From positions 1 to 30,165 of the IMG/VR virus record IMGVR_UViG_3300022752_000274: a stretch of DNA of 30,165 nucleotides; one strand, 5' to 3'. Positions 3,024 through 26,492 of the stretch are shown here, in pieces. Made by a program: the position numbers and the translations under genes. The notes under the pieces are model-generated. The model was not told the origin of the DNA, made no database searches, and saw only the letters and a program-made list of their open reading frames with translations. The DNA is from a virus. Position 1 is the first letter of the stretch, and every line of letters begins with the position of its first letter.

Positions 3024-4303
3024 GCATCATCCGCCGTATTCTTGGGAGTCAGGAGCAGCGCAACCTCACGGGGCTCGGGTTGATCCCGACCTCCTTTGAT
3101 CGGGTCCCGAACTACACGATCAGTCGAGTTGATGAGACTACGACGATGGGGCTCTCAACGGCTTGGGCTTGCGTGACCTTACTCGCTGACCTCACCTCAA
3201 CTTTCCCGATTGATGCGTACTACCGAGACAACGGGGTGCGTCTCCCTTATCGACCTGATGGTGCGAAGCCTTCTTGGATGACCACGCCTCAGCCCGGCGA
3301 GCCTACGGTCGGCATCAATCAGGTGATCGCTCAGCTTGTCGCCGCGATGTACCTCAACGGCAACGGGTACCTTTACACTCCCCGCGATCAAGACGGTGAA
3401 GTCCTTGAGATTCGTGCACTTGATCCGCGCCATGTCACGATTCGTCGTGACGGTCGGACGGTGCGATATGTCGTGCGGTCAATGGCGCAGACTGAAGGCA
3501 CTGAGTACGGGCCCGATGAGATCCTGCATATCCCATTGATTCGACCGCCCGGGCGAGATTATGGGATCAACCCTATTGAGGCTCTTCGGAATACAATCGG
3601 ACTCGGGCTCACTCTTGAGGATTACGCAGGAAGGTTTTTCGCTACGGGCTCAACGCCAACGGGAATCATTGAGACTCCTGATCCTTTGACTCCTGATCAG
3701 GCTCGATCCCTCAAGGAGGGATGGTTGCGCCATCACACGGGAGATAACGTGCATACGCCCGGGGTACTCTCAGGCGGGGCAACGTTCAAGCCTCTCTCCT
3801 TCCGCCCTGAGGATGCGCAGCTTCTCTCCTCCCGCGAGTTTACCGTCAATGAGATCGCACGTATCTTCCGCGTCCCTCCTGCACTTCTAGCAGTCACGAC
3901 TCCGGGGGCAATGTCGTACGCATCCGTTGAGCAGTTGTCGGACGACTTCGTGCGTTTCACCCTTCGCCCTCTTACTGAGAAGATTGAGCGTGCACTCTCA
4001 ACACTCCTCCCGCGCCCTGAAGCCTTCGTTCGGTTCACGATGGATTCACTCCTCAGGGGATCAACTCAGGCACGAGCCGAGGCGTATCGCACGGGACTCT
4101 CGGCGGGATATCTGACCGTCGCTGAGGTGCGCCGCCTAGAAGATCTCTCACCTATTGATGAGGAGAACGTGAACTCCTTGCGACAACCTCTCAACGAAGC
4201 CGATGCTGCACTCGCCTCAACTCGACAACGGGCCGAGGTCTATTCACTCTTGATCTCTTCAGGAGTTGATCCTGCAGAAGCGAAGAAGATCTCAGGTCTC
4301 TGA
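3020..4303 (+). CDS. Portal protein (HK97 family)
   Basis: The 427-residue protein matches HK97-type portal proteins. It starts MSIIRRILG, has the early TTMGLSTAWACVTLLADLTSTFP helix (about residues 41-63), the conserved YLNGNGYLYTPRD strand (about 111-123), LRNTIGLGLTLEDYAGRFFATGSTPTGI (about 188-215), and the helical EFTVNEIARIFRVPPALLA clip/stem element (about 273-291). The dodecameric portal forms the DNA entry and exit channel at one capsid vertex, docks terminase during packaging and later joins the head-tail connectors. Start is GTG at 3020, overlapping the upstream stop. Length and order (terminase, portal, protease, capsid) are standard. Confidence 0.93.
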   Translation: MSIIRRILGSQEQRNLTGLGLIPTSFDRVPNYTISRVDETTTMGLSTAWACVTLLADLTSTFPIDAYYRDNGVRLPYRPDGAKPSWMTTPQPGEPTVGINQVIAQLVAAMYLNGNGYLYTPRDQDGEVLEIRALDPRHVTIRRDGRTVRYVVRSMAQTEGTEYGPDEILHIPLIRPPGRDYGINPIEALRNTIGLGLTLEDYAGRFFATGSTPTGIIETPDPLTPDQARSLKEGWLRHHTGDNVHTPGVLSGGATFKPLSFRPEDAQLLSSREFTVNEIARIFRVPPALLAVTTPGAMSYASVEQLSDDFVRFTLRPLTEKIERALSTLLPRPEAFVRFTMDSLLRGSTQARAEAYRTGLSAGYLTVAEVRRLEDLSPIDEENVNSLRQPLNEADAALASTRQRAEVYSLLISSGVDPAEAKKISGL

Positions 4304-7304: not shown

Positions 7305-7327
7305 ATGAGAAGGAGTGGGAGGGATTG

Positions 7328-8569
7328 ATGCCGAAGATCTTGTGGTCATCAAACGCGCCGTGGTGTGGCACGGGATACGGAGCCGTGACGAAGGAGATCG
7401 TGCCGCGCCTCAAGGCTCAGGGGCATGAGGTGGCGATCGCTGCAAACTACGGGCTCGGTGGTAGCACAATCACGTGGGAAGATATCCCCGTCTTTCCTTC
7501 AGGGATTGACGGATATTCTAACGATGTCTTACCCGGTCAGATTGATTCTTGGATCAAGGGCGATGATCAAGGTTTCGCCGTGATTCTCTTCGATGCGTGG
7601 GTCTATGCACGAAACGCAGCTCTTGATCAGTTTCCGATTCTTGCGTATGCGCCCGTTGATCACTCTCCTCTTCCTCAGGGAGTCTCTGAGTTTTTTAGGC
7701 GACCGGGGCTGAAGATCCCTCTCGCCATGAGTCAGCATGGTCGAGGTGAGTTTATAAAGGCGGGCTTCAGTGAGGATCGAGTGCTATATGCACCGCACTC
7801 AATCTCACGAAAGATCTTCACTCCTGAGGGATCAGATATGCGCGAGAAGATGCTCGTGCCTCAGGACGCTCACCTCACCATGATCAACGCAGCGAATAAG
7901 GGCAATACGCCCGTGCGTAAGTGTTGGGGCGAGATGTTGAGTGCATGGTCGGCCTTTGCGCATCGGCATCCTGAGGCGTATCTTTATATTCACTCAGACG
8001 CTTCAGGCATGGCGAACGGCGTTCCGCTTGATCGACTTCTTGAGGCGGTCAAGGCTCCGACTGATCGGGTCAGGGTAGTGCCGCAGTACGAGTACCGTAT
8101 GGGGATTGACTCTGAGACGGTCGCAGCTCTTTATCGGTCAGCCGATGTCTTACTTGCAACTTCACGAGGCGAGGGCTTCGGAATCCCCGTAATCGAGGCG
8201 CAATCGTGCGGAGTCTCAGCGATTGTGACGGAGTGGACGGCTCAACCTGAACTGATCGGCAGCGGGTGGATCATCCCGGGGCAGGTTGAGTACGATCACC
8301 TGCAGGGTGGATGGTGGAAAGTGCCCAACGTTGAGGCGATTATCTCAGCCCTTGAGGAGTCCTTCGCACTGAAGGGCGATGCAGTCAGGTCAGGTCAGGA
8401 AAGAGAGAAGGCGATCATCAAGGCTCAGGGCTACGAGACGGATCATGTCTTCAGGGAGTATTGGCAGCCCGCCCTCACTCGCTTCGCTGAGATCATCAGG
8501 GAGAGTAAGACGGGCCCGCTCAACCCTAACCGTGAGCAGCGACGGGCAGCCCTCAGGAGGGTCAAGTGA
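7328..8569 (+). CDS. Glycosyltransferase, GT4-like (GT-B fold)
   Basis: The 413-residue protein has two Rossmann-like halves. The N-terminal glycine-rich turn WCGTGYGAVT (about residues 12-21) is typical of the acceptor domain. The C-terminal donor-binding signature RGEGFGIPVIEAQSCG (about 280-295) contains the paired glutamates of retaining GT4/GT1 enzymes that bind a nucleotide-sugar. It should move a sugar from NDP-sugar to a virion protein, host cell-wall or DNA acceptor; location in the late operon favours a structural-protein target (inference). ATG at 7328 is preceded by GGAGTGGGAGG; a TTG one codon earlier is less likely. It is the first gene after the capsid terminator and is coupled to the next gene by a GTGA overlap. 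Confidence 0.85.
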   Translation: MPKILWSSNAPWCGTGYGAVTKEIVPRLKAQGHEVAIAANYGLGGSTITWEDIPVFPSGIDGYSNDVLPGQIDSWIKGDDQGFAVILFDAWVYARNAALDQFPILAYAPVDHSPLPQGVSEFFRRPGLKIPLAMSQHGRGEFIKAGFSEDRVLYAPHSISRKIFTPEGSDMREKMLVPQDAHLTMINAANKGNTPVRKCWGEMLSAWSAFAHRHPEAYLYIHSDASGMANGVPLDRLLEAVKAPTDRVRVVPQYEYRMGIDSETVAALYRSADVLLATSRGEGFGIPVIEAQSCGVSAIVTEWTAQPELIGSGWIIPGQVEYDHLQGGWWKVPNVEAIISALEESFALKGDAVRSGQEREKAIIKAQGYETDHVFREYWQPALTRFAEIIRESKTGPLNPNREQRRAALRRVK

Positions 8570-9105: not shown

Positions 9106-9803
9106 AGCCTAGAATCCTGATCCTCTCTGCAGGGAAGGCTTCACGTCTCGGTGGAATCAATAAGCTCACGCTGACTGCAGGAGGTCTCCCCGTCCTTGAG
9201 TGGCACCGCCGCTTCGCTGATGGGCATCAGGTGGCGATCGTGACCACGCCTCAGGATGCAGGGCTTATCGCCCTCAGTGCACCGTGGGCTGATCGGGTAG
9301 TCGGGCACGGGGACTTTGACGGGCCCGTGGGGGCACTTGCCGCCTATCTCAGGGCGTATCCTGATCCTGAGCCTTTGGTCGTGCTCTTTGCAGATACCCT
9401 TCTCCCTCCTCAGCCCCTGAGCCCCCGCGACTTTGTAGGCGTTGCCGCCGCCCCTGCTCGCAGGTGGGATCTACCTGAGCTCTCAGGATTCTTCGTCCGG
9501 GGCGTTCCGCAGGTAGAAGTCTGCGTCGGGGTCTACGGGTTCAGTGATCACCCTGCACTGATCAAGGGGATCACTCAAGCCTTCAGCGATGCCGCCTTCG
9601 ACGGGGAGAAGGAGGTTGGATTCTTCAGGCTGCTCAATGCGTATCACTCCGAGTCAGGTCTTTACCATGTAAGAGTCAGGGGATGGCACGACTGCGGTGA
9701 TCAAGAGTCGCGCGCTAAAGTCCCTGCGTGGGAGTCAGTGATCCTAGAAGATCCGCAAGCCGATAGACTTAGCGGGCGCATCCACGCAGGATTCACCCGC
9801 TAA
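9102..9803 (+). CDS. Sugar nucleotidyltransferase-like protein
   Basis: The 233-residue protein has the NTP-transferase signature LSAGKASRLGGINK (about residues 8-21), a variant of LxAGxGxRxxxxxxK that binds NTP. A central VVLFADTLLPP corresponds to the acidic metal site, and GWHDCGDQES (about 194-203) parallels the WxDxGTxE ending of sugar-1-phosphate nucleotidyltransferases. It probably makes an activated NDP-sugar for the two glycosyltransferases just upstream. ATG at 9102 overlaps their stop. The first motif deviates from consensus (Lys-Ala-Ser in place of Gly-rich residues), so substrate and activity are uncertain. Confidence 0.78.
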   Translation: MKPRILILSAGKASRLGGINKLTLTAGGLPVLEWHRRFADGHQVAIVTTPQDAGLIALSAPWADRVVGHGDFDGPVGALAAYLRAYPDPEPLVVLFADTLLPPQPLSPRDFVGVAAAPARRWDLPELSGFFVRGVPQVEVCVGVYGFSDHPALIKGITQAFSDAAFDGEKEVGFFRLLNAYHSESGLYHVRVRGWHDCGDQESRAKVPAWESVILEDPQADRLSGRIHAGFTR

Positions 9804-13029: not shown

Positions 13030-14478
13030 ATGGCGGGTGCTAGTGCTCAGGTCACGTTTGCTTTCTTGGCGAAAGATGCCGCCTCAAAGACGGTACGTGG
13101 ACTCACGAAGACTATCGGCGTACTCGGGAAAGTCTCCTCAAGTGTGGGCAGCAAACTAAAGACGGGCCTCCTCGGAATCGGAGCAGGGCTCATCGGGCTC
13201 GCTGCAGGTGCAACCGCTGCAGCCGTTGCCTTTGCAAAGGGGGCGATTGAGGATGAGAAGGCGAACGCTCGACTAGTCGCAGTGCTAAAGCAGCGCAAAC
13301 TTGCAACCGTTGAGAATCTTGCCGCCGTTGATGCACTGATCACAAAGGGTGCCGACCTAGCCTTCACCGATGATCAGATCCGCGAGAGTCTCGGAACTGC
13401 GACGCAGTTTACGAAGAACTTTACTGAGGCTCAGAAGATCCTCTCTGCAGCTCAGGATCTTGCACGCGCTAAGAATATCGATCTCGGAACTGCTACTACC
13501 ATCGTCGGGAAGGCGTTCGTAGGGAATACGACTGCACTTCAGAAGATGGGAGTGCAACTGAAGAAGGGTGCAAAGGGGACGGAAGCCCTTGCAGGTATCA
13601 ACGCAAAGTTCGGAGGCTCGGCTCAAGCGTATTCTGAGACGACTGCAGGATCAATGGAATCACTGCAGATCACGCTCTCTGAGATGGGAGAAGAGATCGG
13701 GTATACCTTGATCCCGATTGTGCATGATCTCGTGAAGGCGTTCCGAGATAACGTCCTCCCGGTGCTGCGCACCGTTGTCGATGCAGTCAAGGGATTCATC
13801 ACCGAGAATAAGGGGATGATCTCAGGCGTGCTCAAGGGAGTAGGTGCACTTGCAGGGAAGTTGGCACCGATCCTCCTCACGATTGGGAAGTTTCTCTTTG
13901 AGAAGGTGATCCCCGGAATCGTCGGCTTCGTCAATAAACTGACCGCCCCGGGCGGTGTGATTGATTCAGTCATGAAGGTAGTCGGGCCGATTATTGCGAA
14001 CCTGATCCCCGTCTTCGGGCAGATCTTTGATGCAGTGGGAAAGACGGGTGCAAAGATTGGCGAACTCGTTGGGATTCTATGGGGCGATGGGACGGGCCCG
14101 CTTGCGACCGCAGTCGGGGCGATCGGCAACTTGCTCGGGTTCGTGGGGAAGATTCTCGGGAATATCATCGGTGCTATTGGCACGGCGATTGATGCAGTGA
14201 TCAGCATCGGGAAGGCGATCATGGACTCACCGATCGGCTTCATCATCAAGGCAGTTGCAGGAGTAGTCTCAGGAGTAGCAGGTGCAGTCGGCAACGCAGT
14301 CGGCTTCACGACAACCTCTCAGCCCGTTGCACCGGGGACGGGCTCAAGTGCAAACCCGATGAGTGCCCGCTATGGTGCTCCTCCCGTGAACGTCTACGTC
14401 GGAGCTGATCGTGTTGCGGATGCAGTCATCCCCGTAGTTGCGAAGCAGGTCACGACAACTCCTCGCGGATCGAGATAA
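13030..14478 (+). CDS. Tape measure protein (short)
   Basis: The 482-residue protein has tape-measure features: Ala/Gly/Lys-rich N-terminus, a hydrophobic helix around residues 45-70 (LLGIGAGLIGLAAGATAAAVAF), long helical middle segments (EAQKILSAAQDLARAKNIDL, AVDAVKGFITENKGM), then repeated glycine-rich hydrophobic stretches (about 265-440), and an Asn/Pro-rich tail. It sets tail length and is expelled into the host envelope during DNA injection. It follows the frameshifted chaperones directly. At about 1.5 angstrom per residue it implies a tail of roughly 70 nm, short for a siphovirus. Start ATG at 13030 follows GAGGTCATAAG, a modest ribosome-binding site. Confidence 0.88.
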   Translation: MAGASAQVTFAFLAKDAASKTVRGLTKTIGVLGKVSSSVGSKLKTGLLGIGAGLIGLAAGATAAAVAFAKGAIEDEKANARLVAVLKQRKLATVENLAAVDALITKGADLAFTDDQIRESLGTATQFTKNFTEAQKILSAAQDLARAKNIDLGTATTIVGKAFVGNTTALQKMGVQLKKGAKGTEALAGINAKFGGSAQAYSETTAGSMESLQITLSEMGEEIGYTLIPIVHDLVKAFRDNVLPVLRTVVDAVKGFITENKGMISGVLKGVGALAGKLAPILLTIGKFLFEKVIPGIVGFVNKLTAPGGVIDSVMKVVGPIIANLIPVFGQIFDAVGKTGAKIGELVGILWGDGTGPLATAVGAIGNLLGFVGKILGNIIGAIGTAIDAVISIGKAIMDSPIGFIIKAVAGVVSGVAGAVGNAVGFTTTSQPVAPGTGSSANPMSARYGAPPVNVYVGADRVADAVIPVVAKQVTTTPRGSR

Positions 14479-17632: not shown

Positions 17633-18837
17633 TGCGCTTCCTGATCAAGTCGCAACTCGATGCCGATGAGGAGGCTCGCCGTCCTAAGGGTGCGATTCTT
17701 GACTCCTGCGGGCCCGTCTCAATCGCGGCTGCGGTCTCGTGGGCGAGCGGGTATGCAGTGGACTTCTCTGCGGCTGATGGGGTCGCAGCTGCAAAGAAGG
17801 CGTTCGGATATGTGGATCGGCAGGGAGTCAATGATGGGGGAACGAGCCTCTCTCTGTTAGCCCTTACCGCTCGGCAACTAGGGGCGAAGGTGCGATGGGC
17901 GAAGTCGTGGAAGGATGCAGTGAGTGCAGCCCGGGAAGGTGCCGCCCTCGGGATTCACGTGCAAGCGGGCCCGTGGTACCCGCAGCAGGTCAAGTCCTCG
18001 TGGCACTTGAGGTGGGAGAGATGGTGGGAGAAGACTGATCCTGCTCACCTGAAGAAGGGCTACGGTCATATGACGAGTGCAGGGTTTGATCCTGATGCAG
18101 CCGTCTTCGTGTTCGCTGATCCCACGATGAGTGGGAAGGGTGAGGAGAAGTTCGCCCGGTCAGTGACTGAGCGTGAACTCCTGCAGATCGCCTCAACTAA
18201 GGGCGACAAGGTAAACGGCAAGCCCGCCCCGTGGAAGAGAATCCTGATCATCACGCACCCCTCAAGGGGAAAGGTCTTCCCGACTCCTGATCCCACGCCG
18301 AGCCCTCTCCCTCCAAAGGCTCCTGAGATGCCCGTACGGGCACCTTTGCGGGCTTCTGAGCCCGTTTACCCTGCAGTGCAGCCTCAGATCCCTCCTACCC
18401 CTGAGAAGAAGCCTCAGCGGGCGGCGTTCAAGGAGGATGAGATCAGGGATGCCTTCTCAGGTTTCGCTCGTGTACCGTGGACGCAACGGCTCAATGAGGC
18501 GGCGCAAGTGTTCGCCCGGGGTCAGGCTGCTACGAAGGGAGAATCAGGGATGAGAAAGATCAAGTGGATGATCGCCAACACGGGCATCGATGAGGCGATC
18601 CTTGAGTGCCTGAGGGTCGGAGTCTCAACGGCTCTCGCCGTTGCGCTCGGGCTCGGCATCCCGATCCTTGACTTCGCTGCAGGCGACTTCAGGGTGATCG
18701 CCTCCGCAGGGCTTGCGGCGATGCTGCAGGTGCTCGTGCGTGCCCTCAATCCTGACGATCCTAAGTTCGGAGTCGGAGCTGCTAAGGCTGCTCGTGCGGC
18801 GGAGAAGGCTGCGCCTAAGGGGAAGCGGGCACTCTAG
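17632..18837 (+). CDS. Endolysin (C39-like cysteine peptidase) fused to a holin-like membrane domain
   Basis: The 401-residue protein has three parts. Residues about 1-215 are a C39-like papain-fold peptidase with catalytic Cys26 (DSCGPVSIAAA), His146 (GYGHMTSAGFD) and Asp163 (FADPTMS), expected to cut peptidoglycan stem or cross-bridge peptides. Residues about 216-265 are a proline-rich linker. Residues about 307-401 carry two hydrophobic helices (about 324-343 and 352-368) with charged ends, resembling r1t-type holins. No signal peptide is visible. An in-frame ATG at 18550 with AAGGGAG eight bases upstream could make the holin part alone. A membrane-anchored endolysin or dual-product gene are the two readings; peptidase identity is firm, the holin part moderately so. 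Confidence 0.8.
   Translation: MRFLIKSQLDADEEARRPKGAILDSCGPVSIAAAVSWASGYAVDFSAADGVAAAKKAFGYVDRQGVNDGGTSLSLLALTARQLGAKVRWAKSWKDAVSAAREGAALGIHVQAGPWYPQQVKSSWHLRWERWWEKTDPAHLKKGYGHMTSAGFDPDAAVFVFADPTMSGKGEEKFARSVTERELLQIASTKGDKVNGKPAPWKRILIITHPSRGKVFPTPDPTPSPLPPKAPEMPVRAPLRASEPVYPAVQPQIPPTPEKKPQRAAFKEDEIRDAFSGFARVPWTQRLNEAAQVFARGQAATKGESGMRKIKWMIANTGIDEAILECLRVGVSTALAVALGLGIPILDFAAGDFRVIASAGLAAMLQVLVRALNPDDPKFGVGAAKAARAAEKAAPKGKRAL
18535..18552 (+). promoter_or_regulatory. Internal ribosome-binding site and ATG for a separate holin
   Basis: AAGGGAG at 18535-18541 followed by eight bases and an in-frame ATG at 18550 has ideal spacing. Initiation here would give a 95-residue protein with short polar N-terminus (MRKIKWMIAN), two transmembrane helices and a basic tail, which is a normal holin size and layout. 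Confidence 0.6.
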
Positions 18838-18871
18838 CGGAGATGCTGCAGAAGTCGTAGACTGCGAAGAT

Positions 18872-18886
18872 CCGAGAAGATCTCGG
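18872..18886 (+). other. Hairpin between lysis and metallophosphoesterase genes
   Basis: CCGAGA (18872-18877) and TCTCGG (18881-18886) pair perfectly around AGA in the 71-base gap after the endolysin gene. No T-run follows; a GGAGG ribosome-binding site does. It could be a weak terminator or an mRNA-stability element. I see no convincing promoter in this gap. Confidence 0.4.
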
Positions 18887-18908
18887 GGAGGTTATAGGAG
18901 GAGCAGTC

Positions 18909-19169
18909 GTGACTCTATTCGATCAGGTGCTCGCTGAACTCCCGAAGAGTCAAGCGGGCCCGAAGTGCACGGTAGGAGTGCTCATCAAGTCTCTTGATTC
19001 TGATGAGTCTGCATCGCTGAAGAAGGCGATCTCAACAACCGGGATGCAGCGCATCCCGTCATCAACAATCGCGACGGCGATCAAGTCAGCCTACGGAGTC
19101 AGTTTCGGTCGGGAGGCTCTTGATCGGCATCGCCGGGGATTGTGCAAGTGTGAGGAGGATGCACGATGA
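18909..19169 (+). CDS. Small HTH-like DNA-binding protein
   Basis: The 86-residue protein has a helical core and ends SFGREALDRHRRGLCKCEEDA, a pattern common in phage proteins annotated as helix-turn-helix DNA-binding: a recognition-like helix followed by RHRRGxCxC. Start is GTG at 18909 with AGGAGGAG upstream. It overlaps the next gene (ATGA) and belongs with the metallophosphoesterase, a pairing I recall from actinobacteriophages. It may be a late regulator or a packaging accessory protein; the role is not shown. Confidence 0.6.
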   Translation: MTLFDQVLAELPKSQAGPKCTVGVLIKSLDSDESASLKKAISTTGMQRIPSSTIATAIKSAYGVSFGREALDRHRRGLCKCEEDAR

Positions 19170-20203
19170 GTGAGATTGAGAAGGCTCTTGAGTCAGTCAA
19201 GGATGCTGCAGCCTACGACGATCTGAAGGCTGCGCACGTTCGGGTGCTCCGACAACTTGAGAAGATCAAGAGATCAGAGGAGGAATACACGGATGCAGTC
19301 TATCGGGCTGCTCGTGATGCGGCTGCAGGGATGACCATCAAGCCCGTGCCGCAGCCGAAGCCTGATAAGAGAAAGAAGGCGGAAGAGAAAGCCGTCCTCC
19401 TTCTTGCCGATTGGCAGGTGGGGAAGATCACCCCGACTTACTCAACGGAGGTCGCTGCACAAAGAGTGAAGCTCCTCGCAAAGAAAGTCGAGGAGTTGGT
19501 TGCGATTCAGCGCACCGATCATCCCGTGCGTGAGGTGCACGTCTTTCTTCTTGGCGACTTTGTAGAAGGGGAGGATATCTTCCCGGGTCAAGCGCACCTG
19601 ATTGATTCAGGTTTATACGGTCAGATATTCTCAACCGCCGAGATGCTCGCGGGATTGATCAGGTCTCTTGCATCGCACTTCGAGAAGGTGCACGTAAACG
19701 GGGTCATCGGGAATCACGGGCGCATCGGCAGGTGGGGCACGTCACGCCCTGAGTCAAACGCTGATGCGATCGCATATAAAACCGCAGCGATGATCTGCAA
19801 AGATGAGAAGCGAGTGACTTGGCGTGAGTCATACACTCAAGGTGAGCGGCATTGGCACGAGATCGTGCCGATCACCGTTGGCGCAGTCACGAAGAAGTGG
19901 ATGCTCTTTCATGGTGATCAACTGAAAGCGTCAATGGGCTTCCCGTTTTATTCCCTGAGTAAGAAACTCGGAGGATGGAATCTCTCAATCGATCGCTTCG
20001 ACTATGCAGCCTTTGGGCATTGGCACACGCCCGCTCGCCTTGTCGCAGCTGATGGGAAGATCACCGCCTACGGCTCAGGATCTATTGAGTCCGCAAACAC
20101 TTACGCTCAGGAGTGGCTCGCAGCATCAGGCGATCCCGCTCAGTGGCTTCTCTTTCAGGCTGAGTCAGGGCTCTCTGCGGAGTACCTCATCAGGCTCGGG
20201 TAG
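19166..20203 (+). CDS. Calcineurin-like metallophosphoesterase (MRE11/SbcD-like)
   Basis: All metal-site motifs can be read in this 345-residue protein. They are D82-x-Q84 (LLADWQVG, Gln replacing the usual His), GD131 (LLGDFVEGED), GNH184 (VIGNHGR), H249 (LFHGD) and GHWH (284-287). These form the di-metal centre of nucleases and phosphatases related to MRE11. Residues 1-75 are a charged coiled-coil-like extension, then a proline/lysine linker. It may process DNA ends or stalled forks, but no SbcC/Rad50 partner is encoded in the window, so the substrate is open. The stop codon is directly followed by a CGGGCCCG palindrome and a strong hairpin, so this gene ends the rightward late operon. Confidence 0.85.
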   Translation: MSEIEKALESVKDAAAYDDLKAAHVRVLRQLEKIKRSEEEYTDAVYRAARDAAAGMTIKPVPQPKPDKRKKAEEKAVLLLADWQVGKITPTYSTEVAAQRVKLLAKKVEELVAIQRTDHPVREVHVFLLGDFVEGEDIFPGQAHLIDSGLYGQIFSTAEMLAGLIRSLASHFEKVHVNGVIGNHGRIGRWGTSRPESNADAIAYKTAAMICKDEKRVTWRESYTQGERHWHEIVPITVGAVTKKWMLFHGDQLKASMGFPFYSLSKKLGGWNLSIDRFDYAAFGHWHTPARLVAADGKITAYGSGSIESANTYAQEWLAASGDPAQWLLFQAESGLSAEYLIRLG

Positions 20204-20260
20204 CGGGCCCGTAGACTAAGGCTTCGCTCGCCCTCGGGAGCCTCCCCTGAGGCGGGCACC

Positions 20261-20291
20261 GCCCCTCCCCCGATCCTCCCGGGGGAGGGGC
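20261..20291 (+). terminator. Strong GC-rich hairpin terminator of the late operon
   Basis: GCCCCTCCCCC (20261-20271) pairs perfectly with GGGGGAGGGGC (20281-20291) around a nine-base loop, an 11-bp stem. No clear T-run follows, as is common for actinobacterial intrinsic terminators. A smaller GCCTC/GAGGC hairpin lies just upstream (20240-20253). It separates the late operon from the promoter at 20337. Confidence 0.7.
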
Positions 20292-20323
20292 TTACCCTCC
20301 CTTTCCGCTTCAGAATCCTCTTT

Positions 20324-20391
20324 CTGCAACACCCTCTTGCAGTGGTACTGATGTACCCCTATACTGCACTGCAGATCCGGGATGTACCCGG
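20324..20391 (+). promoter_or_regulatory. Cluster of inverted and direct repeats over the early promoter (candidate operators)
   Basis: Three inverted repeats are present: CTGCAA/TTGCAG (20324-20329 and 20337-20342, covering the -35), GGTAC-TGAT-GTACC (20344-20357, in the spacer) and CCGGG-ATGTA-CCCGG (20377-20391, just past the start point). In addition GATGTACCC is repeated directly at 20350-20358 and 20381-20389, 31 bases apart (about three helical turns). This is what a repressor-controlled promoter would look like; the binding protein is unknown, and the LexA-type protein at 26292 is one candidate. Confidence 0.55.
20337..20365 (+). promoter_or_regulatory. Sigma70-like promoter of the early operon
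   Basis: TTGCAG (20337-20342) and TATACT (20360-20365) are separated by exactly 17 bases, close to the TTGACA/TATAAT consensus. The expected start point is near 20372, about 43 bases ahead of the first gene's GTG. It is the best promoter I can see in the window and is placed right after a terminator. Inverted repeats overlap the -35 region, the spacer and the start region. Confidence 0.75.
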
Positions 20392-20414
20392 TGAAGAAAC
20401 TGAGGAGGCTCAAA

Positions 20415-20618
20415 GTGAAGGCACTCAAGAAGGGTCAGAAGGTATTCCGCATCAAGTTTGATGCAGACGGTTGTGCAACTAACTCTGAGGATCAGGGTTT
20501 CGTGGTTGCAGATCAGAAGGACGGTGGTGCATGGGCAACCGTACTCGTGCAGTTTGATGAGTTTGAGGCTGAGGATGCCTACCGCATCGAACTGCGAGCC
20601 GACGGGGAGGTGCTCTGA
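20415..20618 (+). CDS. First early-operon protein (hypothetical, beta-rich)
   Basis: GTG at 20415 with GAGGAGG at 20402-20408 gives a 67-residue protein. An ATG at 20382 in the same frame lies inside the promoter-proximal repeat, too close to the start point and without a ribosome-binding site, so I reject it. The protein is acidic with short strands (KVFRIKFD, ATVLVQFDEF, YRIELRA) and may be a small SH3-like or OB-like domain. No family recognised. Its stop overlaps the next ATG. Confidence 0.65.
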   Translation: MKALKKGQKVFRIKFDADGCATNSEDQGFVVADQKDGGAWATVLVQFDEFEAEDAYRIELRADGEVL

Positions 20619-21028
20619 TGCGAACACTTGGCACGTTCAAGGCAACAAAGAGACTGATCACTCATGCAGGGATCATTGATAAGGGCACGCTGCTCAAGGT
20701 GAGGAAGGTTGATAACGGGAAACTGCTCGGGGGCATCCGTGGGGTGACTCCGCTTCTTGTTGTGCACGATCTCACCCGATCTCAGTTGCAGACTCTTGAG
20801 CTTGTTGCAGCCGAGTGCACGGTCTCAGAGATGGCGACTGCGAAGGCTGAGATCCTGCAGGAGGAGGTTGCGATGCCCGTTGCGCACCGCTCCCCGGGAA
20901 TCGCACTGCGATCCCACGAAACGGGCCCGACCTACTACTCAAAGTGCTCCTGCGGAGCCTCCTTTGAGTTTGAGTCCCGTGCTCAGGTAGTCGTGGCACT
21001 CAATGCTCACTGCAAGGAGGTGAACTGA
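20618..21028 (+). CDS. Hypothetical early protein with small-barrel-like N-terminus and C-terminal zinc-knuckle-like end
   Basis: The 136-residue protein starts with a run of beta strands ([33 protein letters not shown]), like a small SH3-type barrel. A helical linker follows, then a C-terminal segment (about residues 107-136) with C-x-C (109 and 111) and a last C/H pair near 130-132, similar to short phage zinc-ribbon ends. No known function. ATGA overlaps join it to both neighbours. Confidence 0.6.
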
Positions 21029-21483
21029 TGACGGGGACTCTTGCCGCAGCCGCAGGGATGCGGAGCTGCACTCAGTGTGAGGTGCTCACTGATGAGTGGT
21101 ATCTCGCAGACAACAACGCATCGGGCACTCTGAAGACTTACTGCTCAGAGTGCGACGATGCCCGAGCCGACCGTCACGGTTGCGTGAGGCTGCTCGCTGA
21201 GGGTTGCGGATGTGAGCCCTACGGAGAGGCTTGCGGCTGCGGATGCTGCAACGTGGGGAAGATCGATGAGGAGGAGAAAGTGGGGAAGAAGTACGAGATC
21301 GTGAGGATGTATGCAAGCGGCAAGCGGGCCCGTGTGATCTCCCGGGGTCATACCCTCGAGGAGGCTCAGGCGTGGTGCCGACTTCCCGAGACGAGTAGCA
21401 GCACCTGCACTTCCGCAGTCGGGAAGCGACGAACTGCTCAACACGGGCAGTGGTTCGATGGTTATCAGGAGGAGAAGTCATGA
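21028..21483 (+). CDS. Cys-rich zinc-ribbon protein with separate C-terminal phage domain
   Basis: This 151-residue protein has two visible parts. Residues about 10-75 hold two zinc-ribbon cysteine pairs (CTQC at 14-17, CSEC at 39-42) and a very Cys/Gly-rich stretch (about 59-75). Residues about 87-148 form a domain I recognise from other phages as a small hypothetical unit: [29 protein letters not shown], then PETSSSTC and a closing [12 protein letters not shown] at 21281 with GAGGAGGAG ahead of it could start the second part alone. The two halves look like neighbouring genes that fused. Function unknown. Confidence 0.65.
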
Positions 21484-21653
21484 AGGCTGAGAAGGTCAAG
21501 GAGCTTGAGTTCGTGAAGCCGTGCCCGGTCAGCGACCGTCACGGGTATCTGCAGGTCGTGCGCAATGAGTCAGGAGGGCTCATCGCAATCTGCATCAAGT
21601 GCTACGTGCCCGTGAAGGGTCGGAAGGATCTCAGAGAGGAGTGCACAAAGTGA
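21480..21653 (+). CDS. Small zinc-ribbon protein
   Basis: Starting at ATG 21480, with GGAGGAGAAG directly upstream and overlapping the previous TGA, this 57-residue protein contains one cysteine near residue 15 ([16 protein letters not shown]) and CIKC (about 38-41) after a strand-turn, the shape of a short zinc ribbon with a His in the first knuckle. A longer frame from 21450 lacks a ribosome-binding site. Function unknown. Confidence 0.6.
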
Positions 21654-21781
21654 GGGAGTTGATTGATATGAGCCTGAAGGAGTTTCTTCAGGCAGCGGTG
21701 GGGGCACTCATCGTGCTCCCGCTGATGTGGGCTCTCCTTGTCGTGGTCTTCACGGCAGGAGCTGATCTAGTGGCGAGATAG
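21650..21781 (+). CDS. Small single-pass membrane protein
   Basis: GTG at 21650 overlaps the previous stop (GTGA) and gives 43 residues: a short polar N-terminus ([14 protein letters not shown]) and one long hydrophobic helix (about residues 15-38). It is likely an inner-membrane peptide made early in infection. Early phage membrane peptides often act in superinfection exclusion or host-membrane takeover, but nothing specific is recognised here. Confidence 0.6.
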   Translation: MRELIDMSLKEFLQAAVGALIVLPLMWALLVVVFTAGADLVAR

Positions 21782-21793
21782 GAGGGACTGATC

Positions 21794-22039
21794 ATGGCGA
21801 AGGGGGATAAGAAGATCCGGGAGGCGATGGATCTCCTCGATGCAGCGGGGGCATCCTACGTGATCTACCCGAAGGCTGAGGTGGATCTTGCGCTGAAGAT
21901 CAATGAGATCTTCACTGATAAGGCAACCGAGCGAGCAGTCGCAGTGAGCCTGAGGGCGAACCGATGGCTGCACGAGCAGATCGTGATCGCAATGGTTGAT
22001 GCTGCAAAGGAGTTTCAGGATCGGAGGGAGGGACGATGA
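21794..22039 (+). CDS. Hypothetical helical early protein
   Basis: The 81-residue protein is mostly charged helix with a central ASYVIYPKAEVDLALKINEIF segment and a closing RWLHEQIVIAMVDAAKEFQDRREG. GGAGGGACTGATC precedes the ATG, and its end overlaps the next gene by four bases. No family recognised. Composition would suit a small DNA- or protein-binding factor, but that is only impression. Confidence 0.6.
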   Translation: MAKGDKKIREAMDLLDAAGASYVIYPKAEVDLALKINEIFTDKATERAVAVSLRANRWLHEQIVIAMVDAAKEFQDRREGR

Positions 22040-22539
22040 GCAGCGTTGCAGTCATGTATCGCAGCCTTTACGACACCCGACCCGTGCAGGAGGTCACCTC
22101 GTGGGGCTCACTCGTGCAGGAGCTGCAGGAGCACTCTGAGGTGAAGAGGGATAAGGAAGCGGGCCCGTTGTGGTCGCCCGTCTCCTTGATCCCCGGGGGG
22201 AAGCGCAGGAACGCTGACGTGCTCGCAGTCAATGCACTAGTCGTGGACTATGACGGAGGGACTGCACTTCCTGAGATTGAGGGAAGGCTTCAGGGGAGAG
22301 AGTGGATCGCATACTCGACTTACTCTCACTCCTCAGCCGATCCACGCTTTCACCTTGTCGTGAGACTCCCTGAGCCGATCTCCCCTGAGAAGTGGGGGGA
22401 GGCGTATCGAAGGCTCCGCAGTGATCTAGGGCTTGAGCAGGGGGATCACCTCCCTGCTCCGTGCCACTCGTACTTCCGACCGCAGCATCGCCCGGGGTCG
22501 GAGTTTTTTGTGAAGGTGAGTGAAGGAGGAGTGAAGTGA
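22036..22539 (+). CDS. Primase-polymerase-like (AEP-type) small protein
   Basis: The 167-residue protein resembles the catalytic half of phage/plasmid primase-polymerases. NALVVDYDGG (about residues 66-75) carries the D-x-D pair (71 and 73) of metal motif I, and WIAYSTYSHSSADPRFHLVVRLPEPISPEKW (about 90-120) matches the SHxxxxPRxRxxxxLxxPI strand of these enzymes. No helicase domain follows, so it is a stand-alone domain of about half normal primase length. If active it would make primers for host polymerase. The third acidic motif cannot be placed with confidence, so catalysis is uncertain. Confidence 0.6.
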   Translation: MSSVAVMYRSLYDTRPVQEVTSWGSLVQELQEHSEVKRDKEAGPLWSPVSLIPGGKRRNADVLAVNALVVDYDGGTALPEIEGRLQGREWIAYSTYSHSSADPRFHLVVRLPEPISPEKWGEAYRRLRSDLGLEQGDHLPAPCHSYFRPQHRPGSEFFVKVSEGGVK

Positions 22540-22727
22540 AGATCAATCGCAAGAGTGAGCCTGAAGTGCTCACGTACTTTCCTCAGGTGACTCGTGATGC
22601 AGTCACTGCATTGAGGTATGAGAGGTTCGTGAGGATGGAACGGGCCCGTAGTCGAGGGAAGGTCACCATCGTCCTGATGGTGCTCGTAGTTGCAGGAGTC
22701 ATCCTGCTCAAGGAGGTGCTCGCATGA
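22536..22727 (+). CDS. Small C-terminal-anchored membrane protein
   Basis: GTG at 22536 overlaps the previous stop. The 63-residue protein has a polar, basic N-terminal 41 residues and one hydrophobic helix at the end (about 43-59; VTIVLMVLVVAGVILL) before a short KEVLA tail. That arrangement suggests a tail-anchored inner-membrane protein with a cytoplasmic domain. It sits between the primase-like and Cas4-like genes; function unknown. Confidence 0.6.
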   Translation: MKINRKSEPEVLTYFPQVTRDAVTALRYERFVRMERARSRGKVTIVLMVLVVAGVILLKEVLA

Positions 22728-23596
22728 TGATCTCAAAGGAGATCGATCCGAAACGTAAGGGGATCAGTAAGTCGCTGATCACTTCGGCTGCACTCTGCAA
22801 CCGAAAGGGATACTTCAGCGAGACGGTGCGTCTCCCGGATGGGGCACGAGTGCCGTGGCGAGTGCCTGAGAAGGTTGCGTTCGGAGCTGCACTTGATGAG
22901 GCGATCCTGCATATCGCAATCAGGATTCGTGAGGGTCAGGAGTGGACTCAGGATGATGCCGTCGCAAGCGGGTACGACTATGCACTGAAGAAGGATTCGC
23001 AGGATGGGATCGATTGGGGGCTCTTCAGGGCTCAACTCGACAACGCAATCAGCCTCTTTAGGGTGGACGTGCTGAGGGAGGGCACTGATGAAGCTCCGAT
23101 CCTAGACTTCCGCCACTGCTACCTGCAGGGGATGGACGGTGAGTCTCTGAGGGTCGGTGAGTTGATCGGCACTCCCGACTTTATCTTTCCGGGGGAGCAC
23201 CGAGAGAACGGGCGAACGCTGATTGTCGATCTCAAAGCTGCAGCCCGAGCAAAGTCGGAGAAGGATCTGCGATCAGCCGAACTCTCCTACTATGCGTACC
23301 TTTGGACTCTGCACTCAGGCGGAGAGTTGCCTGAGGTGGGATACCTCACCTACGCACGAACTGCGAAGCCGAGGTATCAACTGATCACGGGCCCGTCAAG
23401 TGGCGATGCACTGCTCCTTGCCGAGGAATACGTGAAGACGACGAAGGCGATTCTTACGAGGAGCAGTCAGGAGGAGGTGGGATTCTCAACTTCTTTCTGC
23501 ACTTCGTGTGAGTGGCGTAAGCCTATCCCTGAGGCTAGTTTCGGGGGATGCAGTGTCGGACTGCTCGTAGCAGCCGACGAGAAGGAGGAGGACTGA
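22724..23596 (+). CDS. Cas4/RecB-like PD-(D/E)XK exonuclease with Fe-S cysteines
   Basis: The 290-residue protein combines RecB-type nuclease motifs with four cysteines positioned as in Cas4/AddB. Cys25 (ALCNRKGY) is near the N-terminus, and Cys259, Cys262 and Cys276 (FCTSCEWRKP...GGC) are near the C-terminus, expected to bind a [4Fe-4S] cluster. Metal/catalytic residues are Asp152 in GTPDF, Asp169 and Lys171 in VDLKA (Asp replaces the usual Glu of ExK), and the QxxxY-like LSYYAYLW (188-195). It would resect DNA ends to single strands. It precedes an annealing-type protein, so the pair resembles a RecE/RecT-style recombination module. Confidence 0.8.
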   Translation: MMISKEIDPKRKGISKSLITSAALCNRKGYFSETVRLPDGARVPWRVPEKVAFGAALDEAILHIAIRIREGQEWTQDDAVASGYDYALKKDSQDGIDWGLFRAQLDNAISLFRVDVLREGTDEAPILDFRHCYLQGMDGESLRVGELIGTPDFIFPGEHRENGRTLIVDLKAAARAKSEKDLRSAELSYYAYLWTLHSGGELPEVGYLTYARTAKPRYQLITGPSSGDALLLAEEYVKTTKAILTRSSQEEVGFSTSFCTSCEWRKPIPEASFGGCSVGLLVAADEKEED

Positions 23597-25944: not shown

Positions 25945-26295
25945 ATGCAAGCGAGCAGTGAGATGACTTTTGAGGAGAGGCTCCGACCCTTCTACCTTGA
26001 GGCGTTTGAGATTCTCGTGCAGCGGCAAGCCGCTTACGGGCCCGAGAATATCCTTCAGGCGGGAGAGTGGGGAGTCTTTGAGCAGTTGCGGAATAAGGTG
26101 AGCCGAGCTGCGAACCGCCTGAACGGTCAGGTCGTGGGAGGGAGGGTGATCCTTGATGCTGATCCGGGGGATCAGGTGCTACGGGACTCCCTGATCGATC
26201 TGATCAACTATGCAGCGATTCTCCTAGCACTCCGAGAGGGATTGTGGGAGTCAGGGATGATCCTTGAGAATCAGGTGAAAGGAGGTAAGGCATGA
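25945..26295 (+). CDS. DUF1599 / nucleotide-modification-associated domain 1-like protein
   Basis: ATG 25945 follows AAAGGAAAG; an earlier ATG at 25918 lies within the tandem repeats. The 116-residue helical protein contains YGPENILQAGEWGVFEQLRNKVSRAANRL (about 31-59) and DQVLRDSLIDLINYAAILLALREG (about 77-100), matching DUF1599, a family described with phage DNA base-modification systems (also called Nmad1) and related in style to MazG-like nucleotide-handling helices. It may act on modified nucleotide precursors. With the TAGT at 68-958 it supports a hypermodified-DNA phage. The family assignment is moderate, as all-helical nucleotide pyrophosphohydrolases look alike. Confidence 0.6.
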   Translation: MQASSEMTFEERLRPFYLEAFEILVQRQAAYGPENILQAGEWGVFEQLRNKVSRAANRLNGQVVGGRVILDADPGDQVLRDSLIDLINYAAILLALREGLWESGMILENQVKGGKA

Positions 26296-26492
26296 AGGCT
26301 GAACTGCTCAAAGAGATCCGCTCCTTCGTAAAGGCGAAGGGGTATGCACCGACCGTTCGTGAGCTTGCCGAGAGTCTAGGGGTAGGGCACTCAAGCGTGC
26401 AGAAGGCTCTCGTGGACTTGATCGAGGATGGGAAGATCAATAAAACCCCGGGCATCGCCCGTGGGATCAGCGTGAAGGAGGCGAGATCATGA
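26292..26492 (+). CDS. Stand-alone LexA-type DNA-binding domain
   Basis: The 66-residue protein is almost exactly the LexA winged helix: LLKEIRSFVKAKGYAPTVRELAESLG (helix 1 and the helix-turn-helix start), SSVQKALVDLIEDGKI and the closing wing TPGIARGISV. There is no self-cleaving peptidase domain, so it cannot be inactivated in the usual RecA-dependent way. Overlaps (ATGA on both sides) place it in the early operon. It may bind host SOS boxes or the phage's own operator repeats near 20324-20391. Assignment of the fold is confident, the target unknown. Confidence 0.8.
   Translation: MKAELLKEIRSFVKAKGYAPTVRELAESLGVGHSSVQKALVDLIEDGKINKTPGIARGISVKEARS

Follow-up and report, generated by a model that had tools for sequence, protein, structure and literature searches.

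What controls the promoter at which late genes give way to early ones in the virus record IMGVR_UViG_3300022752_000274? Throughout this 30,165-base record, analyzed at full length and referred to here as the window, nearly all genes lie on the + strand, in the order terminase, head and tail genes, an exonuclease-like gene and a block of small genes that includes some replication-type products. A first, sequence-only reading had placed a TTGCAG-17-TATACT promoter at this switch, overlapped by nested inverted and direct repeats, and had proposed that it is tightly controlled, with the products of the genes at 26292 and 18909 as candidate regulators. Our answer, to which we assign a probability of roughly 60%, is that this early promoter would be repressed, in the manner of lambda Cro, by the phage's own truncated LexA (the 26292 product, hereafter mini-LexA) at a box in its spacer, and that a hairpin opening the transcript would act as an RNA element. 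The features are listed in Table 1.

Relatives were gathered from IMG/VR through exonuclease, terminase and mini-LexA searches. The exonucleases of the syntenic relatives are 70-99% identical to that of the window, and one relative, G001, shares 93.5% identity with the window over 7.8 kb. The promoter lies where it had been claimed and is conserved in the relatives; judged by this conservation, the site is a real, conserved early promoter. Among the inverted repeats that overlap it, the one between the -35 and -10 elements is also retained. Its sequence, GGTACN4GTACC without mismatch, occurs once in the window. In G001 the two arms are identical to those of the window and the 4-nt center is changed from TGAT to TCTT, and the relatives carry, with some departures, GGWACN4GTWCC inside the -35/-10 region. 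The box is centered at -22, -19 or -16 from the inferred start, always within the core promoter, a location that suits a repressor. The core of the Gram-positive LexA box is GAACN4GTTC. The boxes of G017, G018 and G035 read GGGAACN4GTTCCC and contain this core, and the GAAC form of the box resembles the Gram-positive one; the window has GTACN4GTAC instead. A position weight matrix built from these sites ranks the box first in its own genome in seven of nine cases; the exceptions are G016, whose top site is another promoter of the same kind, and G014, which scores higher elsewhere. A wider regulon was sought with the matrix and rejected, since in most genomes the weaker sites, beyond the promoter and the extra box-promoters of G016, are about as numerous as expected (14 in G014, with 7.3 expected).

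The mini-LexA matches the Pfam family LexA_DNA_bind (PF01726) over residues 3-58 with a value of 2.1e-10, above the cut-off, and its profile matches the LexA repressors 8s7g, 3k2z and 1lea in the PDB. The winged-helix DNA-binding domain of LexA is present, and the C-terminal S24 peptidase/dimerization domain is absent, the protein ending at 66 residues. The gene is kept in the syntenic relatives G001, G010, G011, G014, G016, G018 and G035, and a copy in G017 is cut by the contig end. Seven relatives' mini-LexAs stop 60-66 codons past the aligned start.

Box and protein occur together. Counting as a box-promoter any promoter with a box of at least nine of the ten core letters, and taking mini-LexA loci with 8.5 kb upstream, we find one in 20 of 25 loci (27 sites; 0.5 expected), versus 1 of 58 control loci; near-duplicates account for several of the 25. 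Twenty controls come from L251-L273 (at least 9 kb, from the mini-LexA scan, with more distant LexA-like proteins) and the remaining 38 from the exonuclease and terminase searches, with L093 and L094 left out. The lone control match is L181, where a mini-LexA is undetected. No box-promoter was found in the tested loci of G002, G020 and G027, which have the exonuclease and no detectable mini-LexA, or in those of G034, which has a doubtful 33% mini-LexA match in a long frame. Other lineages, reached through the mini-LexA alone (e.g. L211, L212, L219, L228 and L242), have it within promoters of the TTGACA type, frequently at a divergent pair and in some cases at a third promoter, and two or three box-promoters per genome are found in G016, L211, L220, L221 and L242. 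The extra promoters of G016, each with box and hairpin, lie at L081:13892-13968(+), near a contig end, and at L081:4060-4130(-), where the opposite strand holds a -10-like TACACT inside the box.

These comparative results favor the earlier suggestion that the LexA-type 26292 product regulates the promoter, the spacer dyad being LexA-like, found in mini-LexA phages and placed as suits repression; the box and its position likewise agree with tight control of the early promoter. The 18909 product, named as an equal candidate, is disfavored, as a homologue occurs in G002, where neither mini-LexA nor box is detectable. We propose that a LexA-family winged-helix protein would bind GGTACN4GTACC and block RNA polymerase, repression being expected from the position of the box inside the core promoter. 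The most likely binder would be the 66-residue mini-LexA itself. Encoded some 6 kb downstream, within the early block, it would bring about a delayed, Cro-like self-shut-off of early transcription rather than act as a lysogeny repressor. In lambda, Cro is an early product that turns early promoters down, although it is not LexA-like; the likeness to the proposed role of the mini-LexA lies in an early product lowering an early promoter.

Several observations weigh against repression by the mini-LexA. Five of its 25 loci have no box at the nine-of-ten cut-off: L201 and L244 reach eight core letters, the site in L209 is degenerate, and in L248 and L250 no box was found. The protein is without a dimerization domain. 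A covariation of helix residue 37 with the box (Q with GTAC, A with GAAC) held in the first genomes and was rejected as not strict, since the contig L123/L208 (Q37) also bears a GAAC-type cassette; the A37-type mini-LexAs form a single clade. Small genes for proteins with only a LexA-like DNA-binding domain are also known from the Pseudomonas phages F116/H66 (210 nt in H66) and from Mycobacterium phage Cosmo (gp13, 234 nt; stop included in both lengths), and GGWACN4GTWCC is absent from the H66 and Cosmo records, the two that were searched. Finally, the sole tested mini-LexA that we found is an activator, and host LexA could occupy the box instead, at least where it is of the GAAC type.

The activator is gp6 of the Bacillus phage GIL01, a truncated LexA homologue which activates the late promoter P3 from a palindrome, GaCACACGTGTGaC, centered at -43.5 (PMC6182141). 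Like the 26292 product, gp6 is a phage protein with only the LexA DNA-binding domain (a match by domain content, not by residue-level comparison), and it acts at a palindrome at a phage promoter; here, protein and palindrome co-occur. GIL01 differs in being a tectivirus, whereas the window derives from a tailed phage. Activation of our promoter by the mini-LexA, on the pattern of gp6 at P3, would agree with the weakness of its -35 element (three of six letters). Yet the GGWACN4GTWCC box lies inside an early promoter, in the interval between -35 and -10, which could not accommodate a class II activator, and its centers, far from the gp6-type position of about -43, occupy three registers that differ by steps of 3 bp; moreover, the protein is not yet made when infection starts. 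We regard activation as very unlikely.

If host LexA were the repressor instead, the box would be a variant SOS box that lets the phage sense DNA damage, with the mini-LexA competing with host LexA or relieving its repression. The GAACN4GTTC core within three relatives' boxes speaks for this, as does GIL01, whose early promoter P1 is repressed by host LexA together with gp7 (PMC4551915; PMC6182141) and, like ours, has LexA-type boxes. P1 differs in needing both host LexA and gp7, and no leader hairpin appears in the passages that describe it (PMC6182141). However, both arms read GTAC in the window and many relatives, the box accompanies the mini-LexA and is nearly absent from controls, and a PHROGs scan of 30 open reading frames of the window gave no integrase match (14 further frames lay outside the scan). 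On balance this explanation appears unlikely, and we retain repression by the mini-LexA.

Directly downstream of the start lies a dyad additional to those listed by the sequence-only reading, CCGGGatgtaCCCGG, for which an RNA hairpin is a better reading than a further operator; each transcript from the promoter would then open with a small hairpin at about +5. In G001 both arms are altered, from CCGGG/CCCGG to CCGAG/CTCGG, with pairing intact. Among 21 distinct box-promoters obtained without a hairpin pattern, a hairpin of five or more pairs lies within 40 nt of the -10 element in 19, versus 2.5 expected from shuffles. An alignment of 19 cassettes has all 95 pair cells paired and both-side changes at two of the five pairs; this full pairing is partly by construction, because the rows were picked by hairpin (18, plus L076 by hand, with two duplicate segments dropped).

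The loops divide the phages. In the group of the window they are mostly an asymmetric ANNTN (L126 and L128 depart). A second group has an invariant AAGACAG on stems of 5-6 bp, mainly GACCAG/CTGGTC, TCGGG/CCCGA and GGAGGG/CCCTCC, with GGAGAG/CTCTCC in a third cassette. Several genomes of this second group hold two or three AAGACAG stems; the window has one cassette. A scan for box, AAGACAG and GGAGG returned 23 viral stretches, 21 of them with such stems; the same scan of a collection of bacterial and archaeal genomes gave 22 matches, whose stems have 0-2 pairs. That the loop stays constant while the stems change points to a recognized RNA. A second DNA operator at this place would also fit the symmetric changes in both arms, as expected of a dimeric DNA-binding protein, and the position immediately 3' of the start. 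We consider it distinctly unlikely, however, given the mostly asymmetric ANNTN loops, the recurrence of AAGACAG on two or three different stems within one second-group genome, and the location of the hairpin 3' of the start in transcript orientation, even at divergent promoters. The hairpin RNA is probably bound by some factor or shields the 5' end; antitermination, translation control and 5'-end protection are candidate roles. The boxB hairpins of lambda nutL and nutR are likewise promoter-proximal, and more than one early transcript carries their common loop. This likeness holds for the second phage group, not for the window, and neither AAGACAG nor ANNTN is the lambda boxB loop.

Two side observations concern these hairpins. 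In L211, AAGACAG sits on three stems at promoters with GTAC boxes, at 3208(-), 3321(+) and 9108-9190(+), two of them divergent. In the distant relative G002, a TTGACA/TATAAT promoter at L009:13669(+) has the leader hairpin CCGGCACGTCGCCGG, with mini-LexA and box undetected.

The remaining repeats fare differently. All lie where the sequence-only reading had put them, and all but the spacer dyad are lost among relatives. The direct repeat GATGTACCC occurs exactly twice in the window and arises from overlap with other features, one copy with the end of the box and the second with the loop and arm of the hairpin. Both copies are broken in G001, for all its similarity to the window, which leads us to reject them as half-sites for an activator or a repressor. 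G001 has also lost the -35 dyad; the start dyad is unchanged in G001, though absent from other relatives, and neither TGCA dyad is retained in the wider group as a control element would be. The direct repeat is probably incidental, as are the TGCA dyads, and the density of nested repeats as such would be partly coincidence. The loss of these repeats is what an ordinary phage promoter, with repeats by chance, would predict; the conserved and co-occurring box and hairpin make that reading highly improbable.

The aligned cassettes have a common order: TTGnnn, 17-18 nt, mostly TAnnnT, a few nucleotides, AGAT or AGAC, the hairpin, mostly GTGAA, then GGAG(G) and a start codon. We infer a transcription start at about A20373, because relatives show AGAT/AGAC a few nucleotides downstream of the -10 element. 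A consensus promoter scan of the window did not include this promoter among its predictions, because TTGCAG matches TTGACA at just three of six places. The order in relatives also indicates that the first early gene probably begins at its GTG, preceded by AGGAGG; ATG 20382 was rejected as the first start codon, as it falls in the hairpin loop and is without a ribosome site.

Table 1. Coordinates of the features in the window
Feature	Position	Strand	Remarks
Exonuclease-like gene	19166-20203		PHROG 284
-10-like TAGACT (TAnnnT)	20212-20217	+	Directly before upstream hairpin; TA and the last T identical in 15/15 rows
Upstream hairpin	20226-20257	+	GCCTCC in 7-nt loop (20239-20245); between exonuclease stop and promoter
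Perfect 12-bp hairpin	20261-20291	+	Loop ATCCTCC; also present in G001, alone among genomes scanned
-35 dyad CTGCA/TGCAG	20324-20342		
-35 element TTGCAG	20337-20342	+	TTG kept in 18/19 aligned cassettes; exception L076, TTTACA
Operator candidate GGTACtgatGTACC	20344-20357	+	LexA-family-like box between -35 and -10
Direct repeat GATGTACCC	20350-20358 and 20381-20389		Copies 31 apart
-10 element TATACT	20360-20365	+	17-nt spacer from TTGCAG; whole promoter 20337-20365
Start dyad CTGCAcTGCAG	20364-20374		
Leader RNA hairpin (predicted) CCGGGatgtaCCCGG	20377-20391	+	CCGGG-ATGTA-CCCGG; about +5
Shine-Dalgarno AGGAGG, first early gene	20403-20408	+	GGAG(G) 3' of hairpin in relatives too
First early gene	20415-20618	+	Probable GTG start; 96% identical in G001
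Mini-LexA	26292-26492	+	66 residues; LexA DNA-binding domain without peptidase domain; early block; proposed operator-binder

Close relatives share a further arrangement 3' of the exonuclease gene: a -10-like TAnnnT, a hairpin, the promoter and a small early gene. No -35 element was recognized for the TAGACT of the window. The upstream hairpin comprises roughly 11-14 pairs and is bulged in the window and in G001; the GCCTCC in its loop is invariant in all 15 rows. Over 13 distinct rows its inner eight pairs are 96.2% paired, versus 72.3% in shuffles, with 21 both-side changes versus 5.3. The loop is complementary to Shine-Dalgarno sequences. This hairpin may serve as the late terminator or, with its anti-Shine-Dalgarno loop, as a small RNA; an antisense role specific to the first early gene was rejected, since in these genomes GGAGG followed by C is common ahead of start codons (63 of 197). 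The perfect hairpin that follows likely terminates either the late block or the upstream RNA. The distant relatives G020, G031 and G032 have 12-bp hairpins with the loop ACCTCCTC (at L089:5276, L095:8922 and L097:8869), which resembles the 3' end of 16S rRNA. Rfam yielded six matches between 19900 and 20700, none of which reached its gathering score.

The closest isolate by terminase is Pontimonas phage phiPsal1 (39%), from which an aquatic actinobacterial host is likely. The contig of G001 begins near window base 13,430, i.e. at a different map point, which fits circularly assembled genomes. No near DNA match to positions 18000-23000 was found among phage records, and no relatives of the exonuclease were found in bacterial genomes. 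Glycosyltransferase-like genes (PHROG 842 and PHROG 2170) lie beside the terminase (68-958) and after the capsid region (7325-8569).

In the literature we found no title or abstract describing the box, the cassette or the hairpin, in a coverage that mostly excluded subscription papers. A truncated LexA, a likely box inside an early promoter and a loop-conserved leader hairpin would together make a new variant of known phage early control. More tentatively, early control in aquatic actinophages may have two layers, mini-LexA-repressed promoters and a hairpin loop read in trans by a phage factor for antitermination, translation or decay control, which would put all early operons of one phage under regulators at both the DNA and the RNA level. 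Gene control in uncultured phages of probably aquatic actinobacteria seems to be poorly known, and a named protein, a proposed DNA site and a conserved RNA leader offer a few parts that can be tested directly. Should the mini-LexA be a repressor, truncated LexAs would have two opposite uses in phages, as activator in GIL01 and as repressor here, and the shared-loop leader hairpins at several promoters per genome hint at an unrecognized phage RNA signal.
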